Made by a program: the position numbers and the translations under genes. This document shows positions 1,348 to 19,733 of a stretch of 22,809 nt of DNA, in pieces. The stretch comes from a virus, in the IMG/VR virus record IMGVR_UViG_3300025674_000429, positions 1 to 22,809 of that record. The stretch is one strand, 5' to 3'. The notes beneath the pieces are model-generated. The model had not been told where the DNA came from. It made no database searches and saw only the letters and a list, made by a program, of their open reading frames with translations. Every line of letters starts with the position of its first letter. The first letter of the stretch is position 1.

Positions 1348-2181
1348 ATGAGTAAGACATTATCATCGGTAGCTGTTACCGAATTTGACAGCATGGTCAA
1401 GCACGCCTATCAAGGCTCTAGCTTGCTCCGTCCTGCTGTTACTGTACGAAACAACGTTGTAGGTGATACCTACAAGTTCCGCAACATGGGCAAAGGTCTG
1501 GCTAACCAGAAGTCTACTTCTGACCTGGTTACTCCAATGGACGTATCCCACAGCTTCGCAACTGCAACTCTGTCTAACTGGAATGCTCCAGAGTACACAG
1601 ATATGTTCGATGCCGCTGAAGTAAACTTTGACGAGAAGCAGGAGCTTGCAAGCACTATCGCACAGTCTCTTGGTCGTCGTTGTGACCAGCTCGTTATCGA
1701 CGCTATGGACGCTGAAACCACTTACGCTGCTACTGTAGTTGAAGGTGGCACTAACCTCACCACTGCTAAAGTTATCGACGCTCAGGTTGCTCTGCGTCGT
1801 CAGGGTGTTCCTAACTCTGAGCTGTTCGCTGCTGTAAACGCTGGTGGACTCGACGGTCTGCTGAACCAGGAGGAAGTAACTTCTTCTGACTACGCTAACG
1901 TTAAGGCTCTGGTAAATGGCGATGTTGATACTTTCGGTGGCTTTAAGTTCATCGTAGTTGAAGATCGTGATGAAGGTGGCCTGACTGTTGCTGCTGACAT
2001 CGTTGACTCTTACTTCTTCCATCGTTCTGCTGTTGGCTTGGCTATCGGCATCGACATGAAGACTAGCGTTGACTGGATCGCTGACCGTACTTCTTGGCTC
2101 TGTAATGGCGCCCTGAAGGCTGGTGCAGTTTCTCGCGATGGCCTCGGCATCGTTAAAGTTCAATACGACGAAACCGCGTAA
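1348..2181 (+). CDS. Major capsid protein
   Basis: This 277-aa protein is predicted to form the icosahedral shell. The position directly after the scaffold gene, the length, and features such as the N-terminal MSKTLSSVAVTEFDSMVKHA, an E-loop-like region around residues 45-75 and the final segment before KVQYDETA fit an HK97-fold podovirus capsid. It appears closest in gene order to BPP-1-type heads. Codon use is extreme: after the first few codons no TTA, CTA or TCA occurs in 266 codons, and Arg is almost always CGT or CGC, as expected for the most abundant virion protein. It has its own promoter, structured leader and a GAGGA ribosome site. Function is inferred mainly from context and bias, but firmly. 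Confidence 0.9.
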   Translation: MSKTLSSVAVTEFDSMVKHAYQGSSLLRPAVTVRNNVVGDTYKFRNMGKGLANQKSTSDLVTPMDVSHSFATATLSNWNAPEYTDMFDAAEVNFDEKQELASTIAQSLGRRCDQLVIDAMDAETTYAATVVEGGTNLTTAKVIDAQVALRRQGVPNSELFAAVNAGGLDGLLNQEEVTSSDYANVKALVNGDVDTFGGFKFIVVEDRDEGGLTVAADIVDSYFFHRSAVGLAIGIDMKTSVDWIADRTSWLCNGALKAGAVSRDGLGIVKVQYDETA

Positions 2182-2513: not shown

Positions 2514-3074
2514 ATGGCAAGCAGTAAGCTATCGTTAATTAATAATGCACTTATTCTGATTGGCGACAGGCCATTGACCTCCCTGACTGATGGCACTCGC
2601 GCTCAGATTGTAGCTACCAACCTATACGACAATGTTATCGAGAACGAACTCAGCAAACATCGCTGGGGTTTTGCTCGTAAAAAGATCGAGATTAGTAAGG
2701 ACGTAGCGGCCCCTGTAGGCAACGAATGGCAGACCACATACACACTGCCAGCCGACATGATCACCTTGATCAAGTTGGAGCCACTTATCCCATACCAAAT
2801 TCTAGGCGACAAGGTTTACTGCAACTACAGCGGAACCCTGTATGCCGAATACATTTATAAGCCGTCAGAGGGCGATTGGCCTCCATACTTCTGCAAGATG
2901 GTAGAGTATGCTTTGGGCATGGACTTTGCTCCGGCTATCAGAGATAGCGCAACCTCGATGGACTTACTTGCTGGACAGTATCAGAATGCAAGCCGCATGG
3001 CTCGATACACTGACTCTCAGCAACACCCACAATCTTCCATTGCATACAGACCGTTTATTGATGTGAGGTACTAA
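2514..3074 (+). CDS. Tail adaptor, tail tubular protein A (T7 gp11-like)
   Basis: This 186-aa protein joins the portal to the tail nozzle in T7-like podoviruses. Diagnostic parts are the N-terminal INNALILIGDRPLTSLTDGT, the R-A-Q-I-V-A-T-N-L-Y-D stretch, H-R-W-G-F-A-R (about residues 49-55), and the W-Q-T-T-Y-T-L-P-A-D-M segment near residue 75. All are hallmarks of the gp11 or tail-completion family. The length is close to T7 gp11 (about 196 aa). It starts after the capsid terminator behind an AAAGG site. Its TAA overlaps the nozzle ATG by 1 nt, so adaptor and nozzle are translationally coupled. No separate promoter is visible, so expression probably depends on readthrough. Confidence 0.88.
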   Translation: MASSKLSLINNALILIGDRPLTSLTDGTRAQIVATNLYDNVIENELSKHRWGFARKKIEISKDVAAPVGNEWQTTYTLPADMITLIKLEPLIPYQILGDKVYCNYSGTLYAEYIYKPSEGDWPPYFCKMVEYALGMDFAPAIRDSATSMDLLAGQYQNASRMARYTDSQQHPQSSIAYRPFIDVRY

Positions 3075-5668
3075 TGGCACAGTCACAAAACCTGCAAACC
3101 AGTTTTGCCAGCGGGGAACTGTCACCATTACTCAACGGAAGAACTGATCTAGAGCAATACTACAGAGGCGCACAGACTGCTGAGGGCGTAGTTATCGTCC
3201 CCCAAGGTGGCGTAAAGCGTAGACCTGGAACAGAGTACGTAGCTGGCGTGGGCGGCTCCTTGACTCGTGTAACCTCCCCAAATCCAACAATGCCTAACGG
3301 TGGAACTGCTGCTAATCTTAACGATGGTGATGACAGCACGTTTGGCACTACAACAGCTATATTAGCTGCTGACCTTGTTGTTGCTCACTATGATCTAACT
3401 GCAAGTCCTTCTCCTGCCTTACCTTATCAGTTTCTAGATGTAAGGAATGCTGACCTATTGGTTGCCAGTGGAGACAATCCAGAGGCAAGATACACCGCAA
3501 CATTGGCAGTAGAGCATTCTGAAAACAATACAGATTGGACTGAGCTGACCACAGCGGTAATTGATAATAAGACAAAAAGAAGTTTTAGATTTAACATATC
3601 TAGCTTGAGCAAGCGATACTGGAGAATAAAGGTTAAGGGGCCAGTAGGCTCTTCTCCGGCTAATAACTTTTACACTAGGATTGGAGAGTTTGGGTTCAAG
3701 CGTGTTATTGCATCCCCAACAAGCTCATTCCTGCATGGCTGGGAGTACGGCACAGATCAATCATATTTGATGGTTCTTAGCGAAAGTAGCGCAAGTTTTT
3801 ACAGGACTCCCAACGCAAGCAGCACCAGCACTGTTGAGGTTGCTAATGTTGTTTTGCCTTACACTACTGCTCAGTTAGGTGATGTTAAGGTAGCTCAAAC
3901 TGAAAATGTCATGCTGTTGTTCCATGAGGAACATCCTCCGCAGAGAATTATTACTGACGGCCTAGATGCGCTCAACTCTTTTATTGTTGACCCTATTCCT
4001 TTTGTTAATGTGCCTCAGTATGACTACAACGATGATAGTAGCCCTACACCAGTAGCAGAAGTACAAGAGTTGACCTTTGCCCACTTTGCTGATGGCAATA
4101 CTTTTCAGCTTGATGTTGGTGGCATACTCAGTAAGAACATTACTTTTGCTGGCGATAGCACCGCAGACGAACAAGCAAGTACAGCAGAAAATATCCGAAA
4201 GAACTTACAGGATATGCCGAACTTTGGAAACAGTGGTATAAGCGTATCGAGAACAGATGTTGCTGAGTACACAATTACATTTGATGGTGAGTCTGCTCAA
4301 CCCTTAGAGCTTCTGTCTGGGTTTGCTACAGCAACAACTAATATAAACTCTAGCGCGGCAATAGGTGTTGTGCGAACAGCAACCGGTGTAAGCAGGGCAG
4401 AAGATGTGTGGTCTGCCACAAGGGGCTATCCTCGCACTGGCGTTTTTTACGATGGTCGATTGTGGTTAGGTGGAACTAAGTCTAAGAGGCAGAGCATCTT
4501 TGCTAGTCGGGCTGGCACATTCTTTGACTACTTCCTTGAAGAGGGCGATGATGATGAAGCTATCTTTATCACTATTGATAGCCGAGGTCTTACTAACATT
4601 GTCGATCTAAACCCTGATCGTGGGCTGCAGGTATTCTGTTCTGGCGCAGAGTTTGTAGTCAAGGGCAGTACCCCAGCAGAGATTATTGTTGAGCAGCAGA
4701 CTAGGCATGGTACGTTTGGCCTAGAGACGCAATCTATTGATGGCGCAACACTGTTCGTCGATAAGAATGGCAAGACACTGAGACAGTTCCTGTTTAACTT
4801 TAATGAAGATGCTTTTACATCTAATGACATATCGGTGCTGTCATCACAGTTGATTGACCAGCCTGTAGATATGGCAATACTTCCAGGAACTACTACTGAT
4901 GATGCCAACTGGGTATTCATTGTAAACCAAGACGGTACTGCCGCAGTGCTGAACACAATGCGCTCTCAGGACATCAATGGCTTTACACGGTGGACTCCTG
5001 GCGCTTCTTCGACAGATGATACCAAAAAGAACACCATAAAAAGCTGCGCTGTAGCAGGGGATCAACTTTATATGATTTCCCAAAGAACTCCAAGCAGCAC
5101 TGCTTTCTTGGACATTGAGCGATGGGACTTTGACCGAATGCTCGACTCTGGCGTAAAGCAAACTGTAACTACTACTGGTAGCGACATTACTCTTAGCGTA
5201 GGCAGTAGGCTTGAGGGGTTTACCTTGGGCGTTATTGCTGATGGAAATGTCCTTCCAGACCGAGCTGTATCTAGTGGCAACATAACTATTACTGCCGCAG
5301 AGATGACTGGCACTTCATCTAGGGTAATTGAGTATGGTCTCAACTTTAACTGCAAGGTTAAGCCGATGCCACTGAACACTCAAGGGCCTGGCGGCATGAA
5401 TACAATGAAGCGCAAGAAGATTGTTCGCATGAATGTGCGGGTATACGAAAGCGCAGGAGTTCAGATTGACGGCAATGATGTGCCTGTTAGAAAACTGGGC
5501 GAGTCAGAAGACAGTCCTCTTAATACACCTTACACCCCCAGAACTGGTATCATACAAGATAACAATGGCGGTAATGGCTGGGACGTAGAAGTTGTCCCTG
5601 AGATCAATGTACCAAAGGGTACGCCATTCCACCTGCAAGCTATCGGGTATGAAGTATCATCATCATAG
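3074..5668 (+). CDS. Tail nozzle, tail tubular protein B (T7 gp12-like), with two inserted domains
   Basis: This 864-aa protein is the hexameric nozzle that closes the short tail and carries the fibers. The N-terminus (FASGELSPLLNGRTDLEQYY, then V-K-R-R-P-G-T-E-Y-V) and the GYPRTGVFYDGRLWLGGT block at about 451-468 are diagnostic for gp12-like proteins. Two segments look inserted. Residues about 61-211 resemble a discoidin-type (F5/8 type C) jelly roll: N-L-N-D-G-D-D-S-T-F near 81-90, D-W-T-E-L near 154, R-Y-W-R-I-K-V at 181-187. Residues about 328-436 form another beta-rich module (ELTFAHFADGNTFQLDVGG and the downstream YTITFDGESAQPLELL). The core resumes at HGWEYGTDQSYLMVLSE. Insertions could bind surface glycans; that is inference. 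A GAGGT site precedes the ATG. Confidence 0.9.
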   Translation: MAQSQNLQTSFASGELSPLLNGRTDLEQYYRGAQTAEGVVIVPQGGVKRRPGTEYVAGVGGSLTRVTSPNPTMPNGGTAANLNDGDDSTFGTTTAILAADLVVAHYDLTASPSPALPYQFLDVRNADLLVASGDNPEARYTATLAVEHSENNTDWTELTTAVIDNKTKRSFRFNISSLSKRYWRIKVKGPVGSSPANNFYTRIGEFGFKRVIASPTSSFLHGWEYGTDQSYLMVLSESSASFYRTPNASSTSTVEVANVVLPYTTAQLGDVKVAQTENVMLLFHEEHPPQRIITDGLDALNSFIVDPIPFVNVPQYDYNDDSSPTPVAEVQELTFAHFADGNTFQLDVGGILSKNITFAGDSTADEQASTAENIRKNLQDMPNFGNSGISVSRTDVAEYTITFDGESAQPLELLSGFATATTNINSSAAIGVVRTATGVSRAEDVWSATRGYPRTGVFYDGRLWLGGTKSKRQSIFASRAGTFFDYFLEEGDDDEAIFITIDSRGLTNIVDLNPDRGLQVFCSGAEFVVKGSTPAEIIVEQQTRHGTFGLETQSIDGATLFVDKNGKTLRQFLFNFNEDAFTSNDISVLSSQLIDQPVDMAILPGTTTDDANWVFIVNQDGTAAVLNTMRSQDINGFTRWTPGASSTDDTKKNTIKSCAVAGDQLYMISQRTPSSTAFLDIERWDFDRMLDSGVKQTVTTTGSDITLSVGSRLEGFTLGVIADGNVLPDRAVSSGNITITAAEMTGTSSRVIEYGLNFNCKVKPMPLNTQGPGGMNTMKRKKIVRMNVRVYESAGVQIDGNDVPVRKLGESEDSPLNTPYTPRTGIIQDNNGGNGWDVEVVPEINVPKGTPFHLQAIGYEVSSS

Positions 5669-12525: not shown

Positions 12526-12816
12526 ATGTCTATTAACAACAACAACCCCTTCAAGGGCGTAGGGGCAAACCTGACAGGTGCTGTTCGGGACATCATCTCA
12601 GTGACTCCGAATGACAGTGCTGGTACTGCGCCATTTGATGATGACCGAGTAGCTATTGGCCTGTATATCACCACTGGTGGGGCTGTGAAGTTTGTCACAG
12701 TTACAGGTGAGACTCGCACCGTCACTGTACCAGATAACTTCTACCTCGTTTGCGCTTGCAAGCAGGTATTTGCTACTGATACTACTGCAACAGGCATTCA
12801 CGCACTGGTGTCATAA
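12526..12816 (+). CDS. Small virion protein resembling the GTA head-spike base
   Basis: This 96-aa beta-rich protein has the pattern 'F-k-G-x-x-a-x-L-T-G-A-v-R-D-i-i-x-V-T-P-n-D-S' at residues 9-31, 'a-I-x-L-Y-i-T-T-G-G-a-V-k' at 43-55 and 'V-F-A-T-D-T-T-A-T-G-I-h-A-L' at 81-94. These blocks match my recollection of the small head-spike base family of gene transfer agents (R. capsulatus Rcc01079) and of similar small proteins in many tailed phages. The downstream gene encodes a lectin-like protein, comparable with the GTA base-plus-fiber pair. A role as the attachment base for a glycan-binding spike is inferred; a decoration protein is the alternative. Its ribosome site is AGAGGA and it follows a putative promoter. 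Confidence 0.6.
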   Translation: MSINNNNPFKGVGANLTGAVRDIISVTPNDSAGTAPFDDDRVAIGLYITTGGAVKFVTVTGETRTVTVPDNFYLVCACKQVFATDTTATGIHALVS

Positions 12817-13605
12817 ATGATTGGCATAGGCGCTACACTATTCAAGGTTCCTACAGCGTATGGTCAGGGGTTTAGTCCTGCATCTCTTTTCCGTAATGGC
12901 GAGCAGGGTGCATGGTATGACCCATCTGATTTGTCCACTCTATTCCAAGAGGATGGCACTACTCCAGCCGTTGTTGACGGTGTCGTGGGCAAGGTCTTGG
13001 ATAAGTCAGGCAATGGTCATCATATAGTTCAGGCCACAGATACCAAGTGTCCTATCTTAAAACAAGATGGCAGCCTGTACTACTTAGACTTTGATGGAAC
13101 TGATGATTGCTTGCAAACATCTAGCAACATAGATTTTACCGCAACAGATGCAATGTCTGTTTTTGCTGGCGCCAGAAAAGAAACCGATGCAACTGAAGTA
13201 GTTGCCGAGCTATCTAATAACATTGGTGGTGCAACAGGAGCATTTAGGTTGAATGTTGTTAGTAGTGATCGTTGGAGATATTCATCAAAGGGAGCTAACC
13301 TTGTAAATGCTGATGGTGATAACTACGTACCCCCTATTACAAGCGTCTTGACTGGCCTAAGTGATATTAGTGATGACTCATGTATTATAAGAGTTAATGG
13401 GGCGCAAGAAGATATTGCTACAGGAGACCAAGGGGCTGGTAACTATGGCGACCACCCTCTTAATGTGGGCGCTCGTAACAATGGCGCTGGCCTTCAATTA
13501 GATGGAAGAATCTATGGGCTTATCGTAAGAGGTGCATCTTCTACTGCGGCTGAAATTGCATCTGCTGAAGCGTATATAGCTTTAAAAACAGGGGTGTCTA
13601 TCTAA
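12817..13605 (+). CDS. LamG-like (concanavalin-fold) virion protein, probable glycan-binding spike or fiber
   Basis: This 262-aa protein has an N-terminal collar (residues about 22-48) with FRNGEQGAWYDPSDLSTLFQ, a segment common in phage virion proteins that precede a lectin domain, then L-D-K-S-G-N-G-H-H at 61-69. From about 88 the pattern LYYLDFDGTDDCLQ, then M-S-V-F-A-G-A-R, and near the end D-G-R-I-Y-G-L-I-V-R is that of LamG/concanavalin A-like sandwich domains. Such domains bind sugars, so surface attachment is likely. The gene starts immediately after the preceding TAA (no gap). Its stop overlaps the next ATG by 1 nt. Codon use looks more AT-rich than the tailspike gene, hinting at separate origin. 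Confidence 0.7.
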   Translation: MIGIGATLFKVPTAYGQGFSPASLFRNGEQGAWYDPSDLSTLFQEDGTTPAVVDGVVGKVLDKSGNGHHIVQATDTKCPILKQDGSLYYLDFDGTDDCLQTSSNIDFTATDAMSVFAGARKETDATEVVAELSNNIGGATGAFRLNVVSSDRWRYSSKGANLVNADGDNYVPPITSVLTGLSDISDDSCIIRVNGAQEDIATGDQGAGNYGDHPLNVGARNNGAGLQLDGRIYGLIVRGASSTAAEIASAEAYIALKTGVSI

Positions 13606-13859
13606 TGAGTGTATTTGCCACAATAGTTGTTGCTAACGCAAACCAGTCTGCTGCCCAAGCAATTACTTCTAGCGATATGTTTACAAGCCTCTTTAAGAAA
13701 GGGCTGAAAAAATACTGGGTAAGCTCTGGATACTTTTCTCAAGAACACTATGATGCCCTTGTTGATAGCGGATTAACATTTGCTATTGAAACAGATCAAG
13801 AGGTTAGACCTATTGCTGCACTGAATGCACTGGGATTGATTAAAGTTATTGAGGAATAA
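13605..13859 (+). CDS. Conserved small phage protein, function unknown
   Basis: This 84-aa protein starts with MSVFATIVVANANQSAAQAI and has K-K-Y-W-V-S-S-G-Y-F at residues 35-44, followed by a helical 'x-H-y-D-A-L-x-x-s' and a hydrophobic end. A 'valine-rich start plus S-S-G-y-f' layout is familiar from small proteins next to virion spike genes in several phages, but no function is known to me. It lies between the LamG-like protein and the tailspike, overlaps the former by 1 nt and is 3 nt from the latter, so it may be an assembly factor or small part of the same structure. Its 3' end (GAGGAA) carries the tailspike ribosome site. Confidence 0.55.
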   Translation: MSVFATIVVANANQSAAQAITSSDMFTSLFKKGLKKYWVSSGYFSQEHYDALVDSGLTFAIETDQEVRPIAALNALGLIKVIEE

Positions 13860-13862
13860 ACA

Positions 13863-15974
13863 ATGCCAGTCACAGGTGCTACCACCAGGAATGATTATGT
13901 AGCAAGTGCTGGTCAAACAGTATTCAACTACACCTTCCAAATCCTGCTTGCCTCCGATATAAAGGTAATGCAGAACGGAACTCTCCTAACACTCAACAAT
14001 GACTACACCGTATCTGACGCTGGTGATCAGGATGGTGGCACTGTCACGCTGACTACTGGTGCAGGTGATGGAGACTCTATCGCTATATTCTTGGCGATGC
14101 CAATTGACCGTACTACCGAATACCAAGAGGCTGGTGACTTCCTAGCATCCGATGTTAATGGCGACTTTGATAAAGGCTATGTAGCCATGAATCAGTTGCA
14201 GACTGACATTGCTAGATCAATACACCTCAAGGATCAAGACCCCTCTGTAGATATGACTCTGCCTCTTGCAGGAAGCAGGGCTAACAAGTTCCTACGATTC
14301 AATGCTCTTGGCCTACCTGATGTTGCTACAGGCACACCCATCAATGAGGACATCATTACCCCTGCACAGTTTGGTGCATTGGGTGACGGTGCGGATGACG
14401 ATGCTGCTATTCAGGCTATGGTTGCCCATGTCAAAGCTAATGGCGGTGGCACTGTAGACCTGGAGAACAAGATATACAATGTAGGTAGCACCATTGCATT
14501 CGGTGTCCCTGTTAAGTTTATCTGCGGTACAGGTGGTGGATTTAGGGCCAGAAACACTGGCAACTACACAGCCATTACAGGGCGATCTGGGGCCGTACAG
14601 CCTAACCCCGATGGCAGTGGTAATTATACTGTACTGTTCGACATTGACGGTATGGCTTACTCCTCGTTCCAGGGCAGGTTTATTCTTACGTCTGTTGGCT
14701 CAACAAACATTATGGGCGGTGAGGTAAAGTATATTCCTAACCTGATCGCTATGGCCCAGCAGGACGGCACAGGCCCAGTACAAGCCCTTAACGGTTACTT
14801 CGAGACTCTTTTCGTCAGCAGCTTACACGCGGCATTCTTTCAACCAGAGAAGGTAGATGGGTTTGGCCCAGTGCTACCATATACTCGAACATTCTTTGCT
14901 CGATTAGAGATCGTCCGATGCTACCAGGCATGGAACTTCCTGCACGTTAATGGCTTTGATGATTGTGCTGTAGGCGTGTTGCGAGTCAACAAGTGTGCCA
15001 GAGATGCGTTTGCTAAAGCATTTGACCTCGACTGTCTTGAGGCTTTCTTGGCGGGTAGTAAGTCTACAGCCACAGGTACATTTACAACTACAGCATCCAG
15101 CACAGCGTTCACAGTCAGTGCAGACGCAGATGTGGTCGTGGGTGATGCAGTTATGATTAAGGGGGCTGAGACCTACGGACAAGGCTTTGTCACCAAGATC
15201 GCTACACTGAGTGGCACATCTGGTACGTTCGAGGATGTATGCCCAGTTGCTGTAACTGATGCAGAGTTTATCTTTGCCTCTGGTGGTTACGAGATGGACA
15301 GGGCCACCTTTGTTTGTGCCAAGCTCTATCTTGAGGGCGCTCACTACAAGCTGCTTCACTTTACCCGACAGGCCACTCTGGACTGCCAGACGCTCAAGTT
15401 TTCTACTGGTGAGTTTGCTTGTTATCAGGGAAGACCTATTGTGTTTGAGCATATCAACTCACTGTGTAATGTTGGTAGTGTTCCGCAGAGTGAGCAGGGT
15501 GTGAATGGTAACCCTCTAGTTGACGGCTCCTTGGGTAAGTTGATTCAGTCCTATGTTTACATAGGCTTGCGAAGTTTTATTGACATCGAAATCCCAGAGG
15601 ACAGTGGCAACTTCTTTGACTTCTACCCTGACCACAACTGCACCATCAAGCTGATGATGACAGAAGCAGATTTGATTACCTATGGCATAAAGCCCATCGA
15701 GGTCGGTCATACTATCTACGACCCCGCAGGTAAAGCGGGTGGTAGCAGAGAGTTTTCAACCAGTGACAGTCAGCTTACTGTTAGGTATTCCGACAAGACA
15801 GTGAAGGTTTCTGGGGATATAGGTGGAACGCAAATGACTATTGACGATGGCAAGCTAAGAGCTGATAACTCTGCGGCAGCCACAACCCCAGGTAGTGTTG
15901 TTAAAAAGATAGAAGTATTTTCAGAAGGCGGGGTTAGCTTAGGCTTCATCCCAGTCTACTCATCGATAACTTAA
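13863..15974 (+). CDS. Tailspike: T7 gp17-like N-terminus plus beta-helix
   Basis: This 703-aa protein has an N-terminal domain (about 1-130) with the gp17 tail-attachment pattern: Y-V-A-S-A-G-Q-T-V-F-N-Y-T-F, N-G-T-L-L-T-L-N-N-D-Y-T-V, and P-I-D-R-T-T-E-Y-Q. This part docks on the nozzle. After a linker (LRFNALGLPDVATGTP) comes the pectate-lyase-type signature 'Q-F-G-A-L-G-D-G-A-D-D-D-A-A-I-Q' (169-184) then G-G-G-T-V-D-L (194-200), indicating a right-handed beta-helix. A small Thr/Ala/Val-rich beta domain at about 395-470 looks inserted. The C-terminus (about 620-703) would be a trimerisation or carbohydrate module. It recognises and may cleave host surface polysaccharide; no catalytic residues were assigned. 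GAGGAA precedes the ATG. Confidence 0.85.
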   Translation: MPVTGATTRNDYVASAGQTVFNYTFQILLASDIKVMQNGTLLTLNNDYTVSDAGDQDGGTVTLTTGAGDGDSIAIFLAMPIDRTTEYQEAGDFLASDVNGDFDKGYVAMNQLQTDIARSIHLKDQDPSVDMTLPLAGSRANKFLRFNALGLPDVATGTPINEDIITPAQFGALGDGADDDAAIQAMVAHVKANGGGTVDLENKIYNVGSTIAFGVPVKFICGTGGGFRARNTGNYTAITGRSGAVQPNPDGSGNYTVLFDIDGMAYSSFQGRFILTSVGSTNIMGGEVKYIPNLIAMAQQDGTGPVQALNGYFETLFVSSLHAAFFQPEKVDGFGPVLPYTRTFFARLEIVRCYQAWNFLHVNGFDDCAVGVLRVNKCARDAFAKAFDLDCLEAFLAGSKSTATGTFTTTASSTAFTVSADADVVVGDAVMIKGAETYGQGFVTKIATLSGTSGTFEDVCPVAVTDAEFIFASGGYEMDRATFVCAKLYLEGAHYKLLHFTRQATLDCQTLKFSTGEFACYQGRPIVFEHINSLCNVGSVPQSEQGVNGNPLVDGSLGKLIQSYVYIGLRSFIDIEIPEDSGNFFDFYPDHNCTIKLMMTEADLITYGIKPIEVGHTIYDPAGKAGGSREFSTSDSQLTVRYSDKTVKVSGDIGGTQMTIDDGKLRADNSAAATTPGSVVKKIEVFSEGGVSLGFIPVYSSIT

Positions 15975-16154: not shown

Positions 16155-16519
16155 TTGAGAAACTGATAGCACCTGTCACTGGACTACTGGATAAGTTTAT
16201 ACCCGATGCAGACACGAAACAGAAGATTGCTCACGAAATCGCTACAATGTCAGAACGCCACGCGCAGGAGATTGCACTGGCACAGATCGAAGTCAACAAG
16301 GCAGAAGCAAAAGGAAATTGGTTCCAAGCGGGATGGCGACCTGCAACAGGTTGGGTATGTGTACTGGGTTTTGGAGTGAACTTCCTGATCTCCCCACTCG
16401 CAGCAGGAATGGGTATCGACATACCCCAGGCTGACACTAGCACTATGCTACCTGTACTGATGGGTATGCTCGGACTCGGTGGTTTACGCACCTATGAAAA
16501 GTCTTCTAAGAAGGTATAG
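16151..16519 (+). CDS. Holin of the 3TM superfamily (GTA-type)
   Basis: This 122-aa protein has an N-terminal amphipathic, charged region (residues 1-55; FIPDADTKQKIAHEI) and then the family hallmark G-N-W-F-Q-A-G-W-R-P-A-T-G-W at 55-68. Membrane segments follow at about 69-90 and 97-112, with a basic tail. The 'W-R-P-x-x-G-W' motif is characteristic of the Holin_3TM family (PF11351) found in phages and gene transfer agents. It is coupled to the class II holin by an ATGA overlap, so two membrane lysis proteins are made in tandem. It could be a second holin, an antiholin or a pinholin. The 3' end overlaps the next gene by 26 nt. Confidence 0.8.
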   Translation: MIEKLIAPVTGLLDKFIPDADTKQKIAHEIATMSERHAQEIALAQIEVNKAEAKGNWFQAGWRPATGWVCVLGFGVNFLISPLAAGMGIDIPQADTSTMLPVLMGMLGLGGLRTYEKSSKKV

Positions 16520-17129
16520 CCTCGCCTTACTTCTGGTAATGCCCCTTGCCTATGCTGATGAGAACAAGCAGGAAGGTAGCCTCAACACCTACAATGGTGA
16601 AGGCTCTACGGTAAACAGCAACAACAACACCGAAGATAAGTCTGTCAGCAATACCTACAATGGAGCAGGGAGTAGCTCCGAGATTCCTGTAAGCAGTGCT
16701 ATGGCTCCCAGTTTCATGTCTAACGGCATGGAGACCTGCCTCAAGGGTGTGTCTGGCTCTGTGCAAACCGCAGTGGTAGGCATCACATCGGGCAAGTACA
16801 AGCTAGATGTGGACTGTAACCGCAGGAGAGATGCCAAGGTTCTGGGTGATCTGGGTATGAAGGTAGCCGCTATCGGTAGGCTGTGTCAGAGCGTTAAGGT
16901 CTGGAGGGCTATGTTCCTGTCTGGTACGCCATGCCCCATGCTACAGGGTGGCAACCTAGTGGTAGGTAAGAGAGCAATGCTGGCAATGAAGATGCGGCCA
17001 GAGGTATACATCCCTGACTACGAGGGGAACGAAGAGTGGTATAACCAGATACTATCAATAGGAGAAGAGAATGAAGAAGTTGCTGAAGATGATCGCTCTG
17101 TCAGCGATATGTTCCGCACAGGCAAGTGA
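16494..17129 (+). CDS. Exported protein of the lysis region with N-T-Y-N-G repeats, function unknown
   Basis: ATG 16494 is chosen because it places a classical signal peptide at the N-terminus: MKSLLRRYSLALLLVMPLAYA, with likely cleavage before DENKQ. A GTG at 16479 would add five residues. The mature part (about 190 aa) carries two imperfect repeats NTYNGEGS and NTYNGAGS (about residues 33-59). A Cys-containing domain follows, with METCLKG, D-V-D-C-N-R-R-R-D-A-K-V, G-M-K-V-A-A-I-G-R-L-C-Q and S-G-T-P-C-P, so at least four Cys may pair in the periplasm. I recall similar proteins in environmental podoviruses, without a known role. It overlaps the 3TM holin and, by 59 nt, the next exported protein. 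A lysis accessory or virion component are both possible. Confidence 0.65.
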   Translation: MKSLLRRYSLALLLVMPLAYADENKQEGSLNTYNGEGSTVNSNNNTEDKSVSNTYNGAGSSSEIPVSSAMAPSFMSNGMETCLKGVSGSVQTAVVGITSGKYKLDVDCNRRRDAKVLGDLGMKVAAIGRLCQSVKVWRAMFLSGTPCPMLQGGNLVVGKRAMLAMKMRPEVYIPDYEGNEEWYNQILSIGEENEEVAEDDRSVSDMFRTGK

Positions 17130-17877
17130 GCTTGATGACCTGATCAACACCTCTGCTGTGCTGGCAAACAAGATCGACGGGGCCACACAGTTGGTGGGTG
17201 CTGCAATCACTCACTCCAATATGGGGTATGTAACTGAGGATGGCATTGTTGACCCGCACCTGATCAGTGTTGCTGAGGTACAGGCATACAATCAGGCACT
17301 ATCCAATATGTCCTACTACCAGCCCTACGGTGACGCACAGACCTTCCTGGAGGACAAAGCCGCAGAAGAGATCAGCCTGATGAACGATGCAGTCGATGTG
17401 TTCACTGAGGCCACTGTGAAGATGTCTACTGTGATCGAGGTTGCTGATATGGCAGAGACAGCCTCTAGCCCCAATGAGGAGAAAGCTGTACAGGATTATG
17501 TACAGAACAATGTGGAGACACTGACCATAGATCAGGGTGATGTGGATGACTTCAACCAATCCCTGCAAGACATCGAGACCCATGCCAACAATGCGGGTGC
17601 GTATCTGGGTGTGGCCCAAAGCAAAGAGGCTACAGATTTCCTGAATCAGGGAGCAGAGGACAATGGTACACACTTTGATGTTGCCTCTATCAGCTACTCA
17701 TCCAATATGCAGTGGGTGCAGGTGGACTGGGCAAACAATACAGCGAGCGCTGTGTACATCAATGGCAACAACTGGGGGATAGACCTCTACGTATCGGCAG
17801 AGGACGCATACTTTGCTGGTCAACAGTCAGAGTTTTATGAGTACAGCCCATCCAACTACTTCGGTGAGTACCAATGA
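17071..17877 (+). CDS. Second exported acidic protein, function unknown
   Basis: This 268-aa protein has a signal peptide (MKKLLKMIALSAICSAQA, cleavage likely before SELDD). An AGGAG site ends 6 nt before the ATG, inside the preceding gene. The mature protein is acidic, rich in Asp/Glu/Gln/Asn and helical over about residues 20-190. The end (about 205-268) is beta- and aromatic-rich, with W-V-Q-V-D-W-A-N-N and N-G-N-N-W-G-I-D-L-Y. No family is recognised. The Cys in SAIC is preceded by Ile, not Gly/Ala, so a lipoprotein is unlikely. A role in the periplasm or in lysis is inferred only from the signal and position. Its stop overlaps the next ATG (ATGA). Confidence 0.6.
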   Translation: MKKLLKMIALSAICSAQASELDDLINTSAVLANKIDGATQLVGAAITHSNMGYVTEDGIVDPHLISVAEVQAYNQALSNMSYYQPYGDAQTFLEDKAAEEISLMNDAVDVFTEATVKMSTVIEVADMAETASSPNEEKAVQDYVQNNVETLTIDQGDVDDFNQSLQDIETHANNAGAYLGVAQSKEATDFLNQGAEDNGTHFDVASISYSSNMQWVQVDWANNTASAVYINGNNWGIDLYVSAEDAYFAGQQSEFYEYSPSNYFGEYQ

Positions 17878-18350
17878 GTTTAGAAGATACAGAGCTGAGG
17901 ATCGGCAACACATCGTTCAAAGGTGTGTATATTGCTATCGTCCTGAGTCTAGCAACTAGCCTGGGCGGTGGTGTATGGACAGCCAGCTCTCTGTACAGCA
18001 GACTCCAAGAGGTAGAGTCCCGCAGTATCCCTGACATCAAGCCGACCCAAAAGGAGATCAGCCTTATCAAACAGCAGCTAGTTGACAATGATGTATCGCA
18101 ACTCAAGGGAAAGTTGGCAGAGCTGGGGACTAATCTGGCAACCATTATGACACAGCAGGAGAAGCTGTTGGAGTTGAGCCAAGAGGTAACTGATCTGGAG
18201 AAGGATATAGAGTCTATGCGTAGCACAGTGAAGACTGCCGAGCTGTTGGCAGAAGGTGTGCAGGACATAGAAAATAAAGTTAAGATAGCCACTAAAGAAA
18301 TAGAAGAACTGTGGGATGGGCTAGATTATGTAGCCAACCCCTTGAGGTAA
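17874..18350 (+). CDS. Membrane-anchored coiled-coil protein, spanin-like candidate
   Basis: This 158-aa protein has a short N-terminal cytoplasmic part, one membrane helix at about 17-40 (GVYIAIVLSLATSLGGGVWT) and then a long Glu/Lys/Leu-rich coiled coil (about 42-145) in the periplasm. This is the architecture of an inner-membrane spanin (Rz-type), and the gene lies between holins and endolysin. No outer-membrane lipoprotein partner embedded in another frame was found, so the label is tentative. A structural or exclusion role remains possible. It overlaps the preceding stop (ATGA). It ends with NPLR, followed by a gap of 3 nt that, with the gene end, contains GAGGTAAT for the next gene. Confidence 0.55.
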   Translation: MSLEDTELRIGNTSFKGVYIAIVLSLATSLGGGVWTASSLYSRLQEVESRSIPDIKPTQKEISLIKQQLVDNDVSQLKGKLAELGTNLATIMTQQEKLLELSQEVTDLEKDIESMRSTVKTAELLAEGVQDIENKVKIATKEIEELWDGLDYVANPLR

Positions 18351-18560: not shown

Positions 18561-18910
18561 TGCAACTCCAATACTTTAATATCGAAGAATTTAATTGCCA
18601 AGAGACTGGCAACAATGAGATGTGTCCATTCTTTCTTGAGAAACTGGATGAGTTGCGCCACCGGTGTGGATTCCCCTTTAGTATTACTAGCGGTTATCGT
18701 GATCCCTCACACTCTATCGAGCAGAGGAAGGTAAAGCCTGGCACTCATGCCAAGGGTATTGCTGCTGACATACACATCAACAGTGGGTCAGAGGGTTATG
18801 TGATTATTAAGAATGCCATGGAGATGGGCTTTTCTGGCATAGGAATTGCAAAGACATTCATCCATGTTGACACCCGATCTAACACTCCAGTGGTCTGGAC
18901 TTATCGGTAA
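18560..18910 (+). CDS. Endolysin, M15A-type peptidase
   Basis: This 116-aa, zinc-dependent peptidase of the M15 family (D-Ala-D-Ala carboxypeptidase or L-Ala-D-Glu endopeptidase class) cuts peptidoglycan cross-links at lysis. The family signature is complete: S-G-Y-R at 44-47, then G-T-H-A-K-G-I-A-A-D-I-H (61-72) with zinc ligands His63 and Asp70, and the C-terminal F-I-H-V-D (100-104) with the third ligand His102. There is no signal peptide, so release depends on the holins upstream. Its length matches minimal M15A phage endolysins. GAGGAG precedes the ATG. The stop at 18908-18910 overlaps the stop of the converging gene. Confidence 0.9.
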   Translation: MQLQYFNIEEFNCQETGNNEMCPFFLEKLDELRHRCGFPFSITSGYRDPSHSIEQRKVKPGTHAKGIAADIHINSGSEGYVIIKNAMEMGFSGIGIAKTFIHVDTRSNTPVVWTYR

Positions 18911-19146
18911 CGTCTAGTCTTCTTTGCTGCGCCCTTGGGCTGTGCTGAGAACTGCTTACCAGCCCTCGTATCTCTTCTCTTCTTTCTGGTGGTAGCTGCG
19001 TACTCCGATGCGCTCATGGCTTTGATAGCCGCGCTAGGTAGGTATCTCTCCCCTGTAGCCTTTGGCCCCTGAGTGCTTGGCTTGCCAGACTTGGTTCGCC
19101 ACTTCTGCTTGCCCCAGTCGAGCAGGGACTTCTGCGGTTTACGCAT
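18901..19146 (-). CDS. Lysine/arginine-rich small conserved phage protein (81 aa)
   Basis: This strongly basic 81-aa protein contains K-S-L-L-D-W-G-K-Q-K-W-R-T-K-S-G-K-P-S, G-E-R-Y-L-P-S-A-A-I-K-A-M-S, A-S-E-Y-A-A-T-T-R-K-K-R-R-D-T-R-A-G-K-Q-F, and ends KKTRRYR. I recall homologues in marine T7-like and other phages, without a defined function. The net charge suggests nucleic acid binding. Its ATG overlaps the stop of the 59-aa gene by 1 nt (TAATG), so translation is coupled. It is the last gene of the - strand block and overlaps the endolysin 3' end by 10 bp. No terminator is visible. Confidence 0.7.
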   Translation of the reverse strand: MRKPQKSLLDWGKQKWRTKSGKPSTQGPKATGERYLPSAAIKAMSASEYAATTRKKRRDTRAGKQFSAQPKGAAKKTRRYR

Positions 19147-19325
19147 TAGTTGGTGTAGCCTCCACCCTTGGCCTTATAACGCTTTGCCAACATCTGAGCC
19201 TTACGTGCAGACCACTGCCCAGGACGACCACCCTTGCCCCCAGCCTTGATAGCCTCGAACAAGTTCTTCCGCATGGTGGGCTTGGTGTAGTTACCCGCTT
19301 CGTTTACTCTGGACTTCTTCTTCAT
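19146..19325 (-). CDS. 59-aa lysine-rich conserved phage protein
   Basis: The gene runs from ATG (19325) to TAA (19148-19146). The protein starts MKKKSRVNEAGNYTKPTMRK and continues NLFEAIKAGGKGGRPGQWSA then R-K-A-Q-M-L-A-K-R-Y-K-A-K-G-G-G-Y. 'R-V-N-E-A-G-N-Y-T-K-P' and 'G-x-P-G-Q-W-S-A-R-K-A-Q' are familiar blocks of small proteins in marine phages. About a quarter of residues are Lys or Arg and there are only two acidic residues, so DNA binding is likely. The start overlaps the upstream stop (ATGA) and the stop overlaps the downstream start (TAATG), so it sits in a tight coupled chain. Confidence 0.75.
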   Translation of the reverse strand: MKKKSRVNEAGNYTKPTMRKNLFEAIKAGGKGGRPGQWSARKAQMLAKRYKAKGGGYTN

Positions 19326-19453
19326 TTGGAGAGCATCGACTTCTTTTTCTTCTTGCCATACGACATCTTCATGCCAGTGCGCTTGGCTTCTTTCATTGCT
19401 GCTGCTTTACCAGCGGGAGTGTATGCGTACTTCTTGTTTCCTACCTGGGGCAT
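19322..19453 (-). CDS. 43-aa lysine-rich mini-protein
   Basis: I choose ATG 19453. It gives MPQVGNKKYAYTPAGKAAAM, followed by K-E-A-K-R-T-G-M-K-M-S-Y-G-K-K-K-K-K, a pattern ('V-G-x-K-k-Y-x-Y-T-x-x-G-K-x-A-A') shared by many tiny phage proteins. A longer frame reading from 19585 would overlap the 91-aa gene by 128 nt and is not supported. The gene is 4 nt after the 91-aa gene and overlaps the 59-aa gene by 4 nt. The ribosome site is weak (GTGGTG). Five consecutive Lys near the C-terminus indicate nucleic acid or acidic-surface binding. The function is unknown. Confidence 0.65.
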   Translation of the reverse strand: MPQVGNKKYAYTPAGKAAAMKEAKRTGMKMSYGKKKKKSMLSK

Positions 19454-19457
19454 GGTA

Positions 19458-19733
19458 TCACCACTTTGATTTGTTTGCCCAGAATGCGGCAGACATCTTA
19501 CCCTTGGCGATGTTCTTGGCATGACGAGCTTTGAAGGATTTACGACGAGCCTTTTGCTTAGCTGTCTGTGGATTTGAGCCAGCACCTCTCACACCCTGCT
19601 GACCATAGCGAATAGTCTTCACCCTATCGCCCTCTTTTGCGACGACAACGTGAGACTTAGTTGGGTGACCAGGGGTTCTCTTAGGCTTGTTGTACCCAGA
19701 GACCCCGATCCTTTTTAGGAGGCTCTTACTCAT
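19458..19733 (-). CDS. 91-aa basic conserved phage protein (DUF6321-like)
   Basis: This basic 91-aa protein starts MSKSLLKRIGVSGYNKPKRT and continues P-G-H-P-T-K-S-H-V-V-V-A-K-E-G-D, I-R-Y-G-Q-Q-G-V-R-G-A-G, S-F-K-A-R-H-A-K-N-I-A-K-G-K-M-S-A-A-F-W-A-N-K. These blocks are those of a small conserved family in marine phages and some bacteria (I recall DUF6321), of unknown function. It is the first gene of a four-gene basic cluster. A TATAAT box ends 6 nt before the ATG, so a leaderless start is possible. It follows the DUF3310 gene by 18 nt. Confidence 0.75.
   Translation of the reverse strand: MSKSLLKRIGVSGYNKPKRTPGHPTKSHVVVAKEGDRVKTIRYGQQGVRGAGSNPQTAKQKARRKSFKARHAKNIAKGKMSAAFWANKSKW

Follow-up and report, generated by a model that had tools for sequence, protein, structure and literature searches.

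A putative head-spike cassette of a marine podovirus, with evidence that its base and lectin modules are exchangeable

The DNA studied here, which we call the window, is the whole 22,809-nucleotide stretch of the IMG/VR virus record IMGVR_UViG_3300025674_000429. Between positions 12526 and 13859 it contains three ORFs, all on the plus strand and all as given in a first-pass annotation made from the sequence alone, which encode proteins of 96 aa (12526-12816), 262 aa (12817-13605) and 84 aa (13605-13859). The genes are very closely packed: the TAA stop codon of the first (12814-12816) abuts the ATG of the second at 12817, leaving zero intergenic bases, as that annotation had reported, and the stop of the 262-aa gene overlaps the start of the 84-aa gene by 1 base. 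The order base, lectin, 84-aa protein and tailspike is kept in most of the closest relatives, and these ORFs are therefore not chance. A putative promoter belonging to the cassette had also been proposed. There is a gap of 59 bases upstream of the base gene. Our promoter scan counted 4 promoter-like sites where shuffled sequences gave 3.3 +/- 1.8, no excess over chance, and the site near the gap matched at only 9 of 12 positions, so that this proposal is not supported.

The cassette has genes of internal virion proteins on one side and that of the tailspike on the other, away from the gene of the major capsid protein (1348..2181, plus strand, 277 aa; PF19821 at 1.7e-66 and phrog_3437 at 1.8e-54), the presumed attachment partner of the base. 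The tailspike (13863..15974, plus strand, 703 aa) matches the tail protein family phrog_1640, a podovirus tail-fibre N-terminus, at 1.1e-23 through its residues 6-104, and its conservation in most relatives is limited to the first about 150-290 residues. It is a separate, tail-anchored receptor-binding protein, in agreement with the first reading of this DNA. The same reading had also mentioned a lectin-bearing nozzle. The sole hint that we obtained in the tail nozzle protein (3074-5668) is a weak match of residues 119-190 to F5/8 type C (discoidin-like), whose E-value of 0.0076 is below the cut-off in significance, and this part is not supported. Farther downstream, the region 16479-18350 holds three overlapping genes, which encode proteins of about 212 aa (with phrog_20531), 268 aa and 158 aa and lie between the holin and M15 peptidase genes; they are missing from most close relatives, are 46-63% identical in one group of them (L019/L020/L022/L024/L025) and represent a shared lysis-region insert. 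Several small minus-strand ORFs at 18901-19733 are very rich in lysine and arginine, and similar basic ORFs occur in the loci L037 and L146.

The 96-aa protein contains LTGAVRDIISVTPNDS and VFATDTTATGI, the two blocks quoted in the first-pass annotation, which had proposed a GTA-like head-spike base and a profile comparison with Rcc01079 homologues. This comparison was positive: the NCBIfam profile NF048002 (spike base, RCAP_Rcc01079) scores 60.4 bits against a curated cut-off of 28, and residues 7-95 of the protein are aligned with positions 1-85 of 85, the full length of the profile. Searching the PDB with a profile of 18 phage base sequences (A1) retrieved Rcc01079 (6tb9) at an E-value of 0.0023. 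The AlphaFold2 model (pLDDT 81) is small and jelly-roll-like, and Foldseek placed it nearest to the RcGTA base (6tb9_A1, E 7.6e-4, TMt 0.71) and then to a chain of the Carin-1 mature capsid (8cjz_h, E 1.6e-3, TMt 0.64), with a clear gap before the third-best match at only 4e-2. It should be noted that both profile and fold were required to recognise the base, since BLAST against 50,697 phage records returned no match and the single-sequence PDB search found 6tb9 at an E-value of 0.18 only. The family match, together with the fold, identifies the 96-aa protein as a member of the Rcc01079 family of head-spike bases known from RcGTA; by homology, it would be located on the head.

The 262-aa protein is modelled with high confidence (pLDDT 91.6) as a LamG-like beta-sandwich, confident from about residue 21, and as a putative spike fibre it can be divided into an N-terminal plug, a short linker and a LamG/ConA-like lectin domain (about residues 21-260). 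With this model, 438 PDB entries were matched at E<=0.001, the best being LamG-like lectin domains at 8-15% identity. The earlier call of a LamG-like protein thus holds by fold and fails by sequence, the Laminin_G_3 profile (PF13385) reaching 21.4 bits, under the Pfam gathering cut-off of 27.6. The top Foldseek matches are receptor-binding domains of clostridial neurotoxins and of their partners, also at 8-15% identity; they reflect a generic LamG-like fold and do not imply a toxin function. The protein also matches phrog_10356, a virion structural protein, at 6.8e-12. The profile of the RcGTA spike fibre domain (NF048003) does not match it, while the same library gives 174 bits for RcapMu58, and the podovirus tail-fibre N-terminal anchor found in the 703-aa spike is absent from it. 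Its fold suggests that it may bind host surface sugars.

The plug comprises about the first 15 residues (MIGIGATLFKVPTAY, 12817..12861, plus strand) and begins MIGIGATLFK, with hydrophobic residues at 2, 4, 6 and 8. Residues 1-16 are disordered in the single-chain model, which is what is expected of a peptide folding only inside its socket. In all of the IMG/VR relatives (34/34), and also in most Rhodobacterales loci, the fibre gene adjoins the base gene, and in those 34 relatives the fibre starts follow, exactly or nearly, the pattern of hydrophobic residues at 2, 4, 6 and 8, with bodies behind the plug that vary among LamG, glycine-rich, repeat (judged by eye) and proteins longer than 800 aa. 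An alternation score was higher for the starts of base-downstream genes than for other genes of the same loci, with p about 1e-8 for phages and about 2e-13 for Rhodobacterales genomes, where the phase is shifted by one residue in many cases; since the sequences are mutually related, these counts are not phylogenetically independent and the p-values overstate independence. MIGIGATL scores above 96% of control N-termini, although with four alternating positions, of which A6 is weak, instead of the five (iso)leucines of the RcGTA fibre. Counting ORFs of 80 aa or more in 123 records, we found 35 that start with M-hydrophobic-G-hydrophobic-G, and 34 of them follow a base or base-like gene. Concerning the Rhodobacterales loci (L039-L118), many base-downstream genes start MK[FILV]xxD[FIL]S[VLF]TS, which looks like a third plug type with the alternation shifted by one residue.

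Among the solved structures that we found, only RcGTA and Carin-1 carry GTA-type head spikes. In RcGTA the spike consists of five bases and one fibre. Residues 2-10 of this fibre, IALGLGLGL, are arranged as a five-point star that occupies hydrophobic pockets in the pentamer of bases; the remaining fibre is flexible, and the head fibres bind capsule (PMC7296036). The window shares with RcGTA the Rcc01079 family and fold of the base, the base-fibre gene pair (Rcc01079/Rcc01080) and the alternating plug, and by analogy we propose that its spike could bind capsule as well. RcGTA differs in being a host-encoded, siphovirus-like agent with an HK97-fold capsid, and in its NF048003 fibre, where the window has a LamG-like one. 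Base homologues are also found in the Rhodobacter phages RcapMu, RcapNL and RcMrWorf (NF048002, 74-106 bits), where, unlike in our interpretation of the window, they are annotated as tail fibre or hypothetical; RcapNL resembles the window in that gp30, directly after the base, begins MGLGLGIGLGLS (M-G-L-G-L-G-I-G-L-G-L). RcMrWorf and its kin (L121:3001-3899) have a clear base (73.6 bits) surrounded by genes of DNA metabolism; the gene behind it encodes an HTH protein and none that is fibre-like follows, so it may be an orphan base.

The closest precedent is Carin-1, which infects the marine bacterium Cobetia marina and is, like the virus of the window, a podovirus with an NF048002 base followed by a LamG-like protein having an alternating hydrophobic/glycine start. 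Its base gp40 (40.5 bits with NF048002) is annotated as 'head spike base protein, structurally identified and validated' (GenBank PQ119497) and is chain h of 8cjz, 'Spike Base Protein' of the mature capsid (full-length match, E 2e-55). The next protein, gp39, whose gene slightly overlaps that of gp40, is annotated only as hypothetical; it starts MLGLGLGIAR, and its LamG-like part is 28% identical to the lectin of the window. Strict adjacency, a plug-like fibre start and this precedent all speak for the base-plus-fibre pairing that had first been suggested for the window. Carin-1 differs in that its cassette is placed between the cement and connector genes, that gp39 is longer and that gp38, from the small gene after gp39, does not match the 84-aa protein. 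Moreover, BLAST detected no relation between the capsid proteins of Carin-1 and the window, and attachment of the base to the head of the window is therefore something that we infer. The structure paper on Carin-1 reportedly compares its short capsid spikes with those of RcGTA.

A search with the 84-aa protein led to two loci, L036 and L037, in which lectin and 84-aa gene stand behind a different protein of 98-99 aa that directly follows the major capsid gene. Twenty further loci (L129-L148) show, where the contig allows, the order capsid gene, 99-aa protein, 4 bases, fibre and small protein; wherever such a locus holds upstream sequence, the MCP gene immediately precedes this base-like gene. 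The second family ('IQVLRP...LPANTIEYIHVY...GSAYIT'; L036:1384-1677, L037:6217-6513) has no homology to the spike bases detectable by profile comparison and no significant match in PDB, PHROG or phage records, and no spike base was found in the four second-type records searched. Its position and its partner make it a candidate unrelated spike base. The fibres behind it start MYGLGVN[KRQ]LG or close to it; the two plug sequences are MIGIGATLFKVPTAYG for plug A and MYGLGVNRLGVTN for plug B.

We compared the identity of each part of the cassette within and across base types. In pairs with the same base type, mean identity is 0.76 for the base, about 0.8 for the plug, about 0.52 for the lectin body and about 0.49 for the small protein, while in pairs with different bases it is 0.26, 0.25, 0.52 and 0.48, respectively, and between base types certain lectin bodies reach 82-88% identity, which is higher than their identity to most same-type fibres. 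When the DNA of L009 (spike base) is compared with that of L143 (second type), identity stays at the background of about 0.4 across the base gene and over the initial 50-80 bases of the fibre gene and is then 0.88-0.93, the jump being located at nt 60-84 of the fibre gene. The reverse case is given by L006 and L007, whose bases are 99% identical and whose lectin DNA is 36% identical. From these cross-type identities, this breakpoint and its reverse it follows that the plug tracks the base and the lectin tracks the small protein. On sequence comparison, base plus plug and lectin plus 84-aa protein appear as two exchangeable evolutionary modules, a pattern that would reflect recombination just behind the plug and that can be read as genetic evidence for recognition of the plug by the base. 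In the literature searched we found no prior description of the plug rule or of this exchange; the novelty lies in the module exchange, since the pair of base and lectin itself has a direct precedent in Carin-1. As a separate observation, L006 (2931-4950) has a 571-aa fibre in place of the 262-aa lectin, whose body is nearest to that of the B-type locus L130, apparently another cross-system exchange, and no homologue of the tailspike of the window was found there.

The 84-aa protein (13605..13859, plus strand) gave no usable match in family searches. Its gene adjoins the lectin gene with both base types, and its identity correlates with that of the lectin body (Spearman 0.53) and not with that of the base (0.00). 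Because it is co-inherited with the lectin body, which is the sole basis for assigning it an accessory role, it is most likely a lectin-specific assembly helper, chaperone or partner, and this is the weakest step of our interpretation. In loci with non-LamG fibres (L014, L018, L029-L035) it is replaced by a protein of 114-116 aa starting MAHFAK or MAHYAV, as if every fibre class brought its own partner.

Spike bases of the NF048002 kind occur on at least four capsid backgrounds, which are PF19821/phrog_3437 (the window, L003 and L016), phrog_267 (L029 and L031), the capsid of Carin-1 and the HK97-fold capsid of RcGTA; in several relatives of 35-38 kb (L019, L020 and L025) the capsid matches neither PF19821/phrog_3437 nor phrog_267. 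No spike base was detectable in the isolates whose capsid proteins are closest (Methylophilales MEP301, Dunaliella virus SI2, Vibrio CKB-S2, 1.138.O and PG9A-2), which shows that the lineage does not carry the cassette as a fixed component.

Base and lectin might instead form a receptor-binding complex bound to the tail, for example an extra nozzle fibre. The position of the cassette, next to the tailspike gene and not beside the capsid gene, would fit such a complex, as would the label 'tail fiber' carried by base homologues in PHROG 12296 and in the RcapMu and RcapNL records, and the LamG-like fold also occurs in a tailspike chain of cyanophage Pan3 (9vyh_p, TM 0.6). However, the only solved homologues (6tb9 and 8cjz) sit on capsids, it is the 703-aa spike and not the lectin that bears the tail-anchoring N-terminal domain, and the lectin cassette of the second base system lies directly behind the MCP gene. 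Neighbourhood to the tailspike is also not constant: the two genes are unlinked in L014, where the tailspike gene lies upstream of the base at a distance of about 4 kb. We therefore regard a tail complex as unlikely.

Small jelly-roll proteins are common capsid decorations, and touching genes need not mean that base and lectin bind each other; the 96-aa protein might thus be a plain decoration or cement protein, with the adjacent lectin attaching elsewhere or acting independently. Such an arrangement gives no reason why the gene after the base keeps its start in front of bodies that are unrelated in sequence, nor why a change of base goes with a change of plug, both of which are to be expected if the start of the fibre binds the base, and we hold it to be quite improbable. 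Finally, the N-terminal stretch shared by the fibres is short and hydrophobic and could be taken for an export, processing or translation signal instead of a plug. This appears very improbable, as the stretch falls short of the length of a signal peptide, is specific, in the loci read, to base-downstream genes (34/35), differs between base types carrying the same lectin body and corresponds to RcGTA residues seen bound in the base pentamer.

We consider it highly probable that the segment 12526-13859 encodes the head spikes of a marine podovirus, as a cassette in which base plus plug and lectin plus 84-aa protein are separable. Following RcGTA and Carin-1, five 96-aa bases would form a small beta pentamer, anchored through their N-termini to each five-fold capsomer of the head, and would carry one fibre per pentamer. 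The first 8-11 residues of the fibre, with hydrophobics at 2, 4, 6, 8 and probably 11, would enter the pockets of the pentamer, leaving the LamG lectin outside on a short flexible linker, where, judging from its fold, it would reversibly bind host surface sugars. Such spikes could provide the head with numerous weak and reversible contacts on all sides before the tail engages, when the 703-aa tail-anchored spike would take over. In evolution, as the sequence comparison shows, the plug follows the base, and the lectin, probably served by the 84-aa protein, is swapped between phages, including those with the sequence-unrelated base-like protein. In more general terms, it seems rather probable that marine podoviruses share a plug-and-socket head spike with a base-specific key, that at least two sequence-unrelated bases, in different capsid lineages, draw on one pool of lectins through recombination just behind this key, and that glycan binding by the head evolves independently of the tail.

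These results extend the base-fibre pair to numerous uncultured marine podoviruses whose capsid proteins differ, and propose a function for the unannotated gene downstream of the base, that of a fibre anchored through a short N-terminal plug. They also provide a rule for finding head-spike fibres, namely the gene after a spike base with an alternating hydrophobic start, and the plug itself suggests a peptide tag for protein display on such capsids. The breakpoint between plug and lectin indicates a route by which head adhesion could be exchanged between phages, and supports the idea that the spikes of GTAs and those of phages are one exchangeable toolkit.
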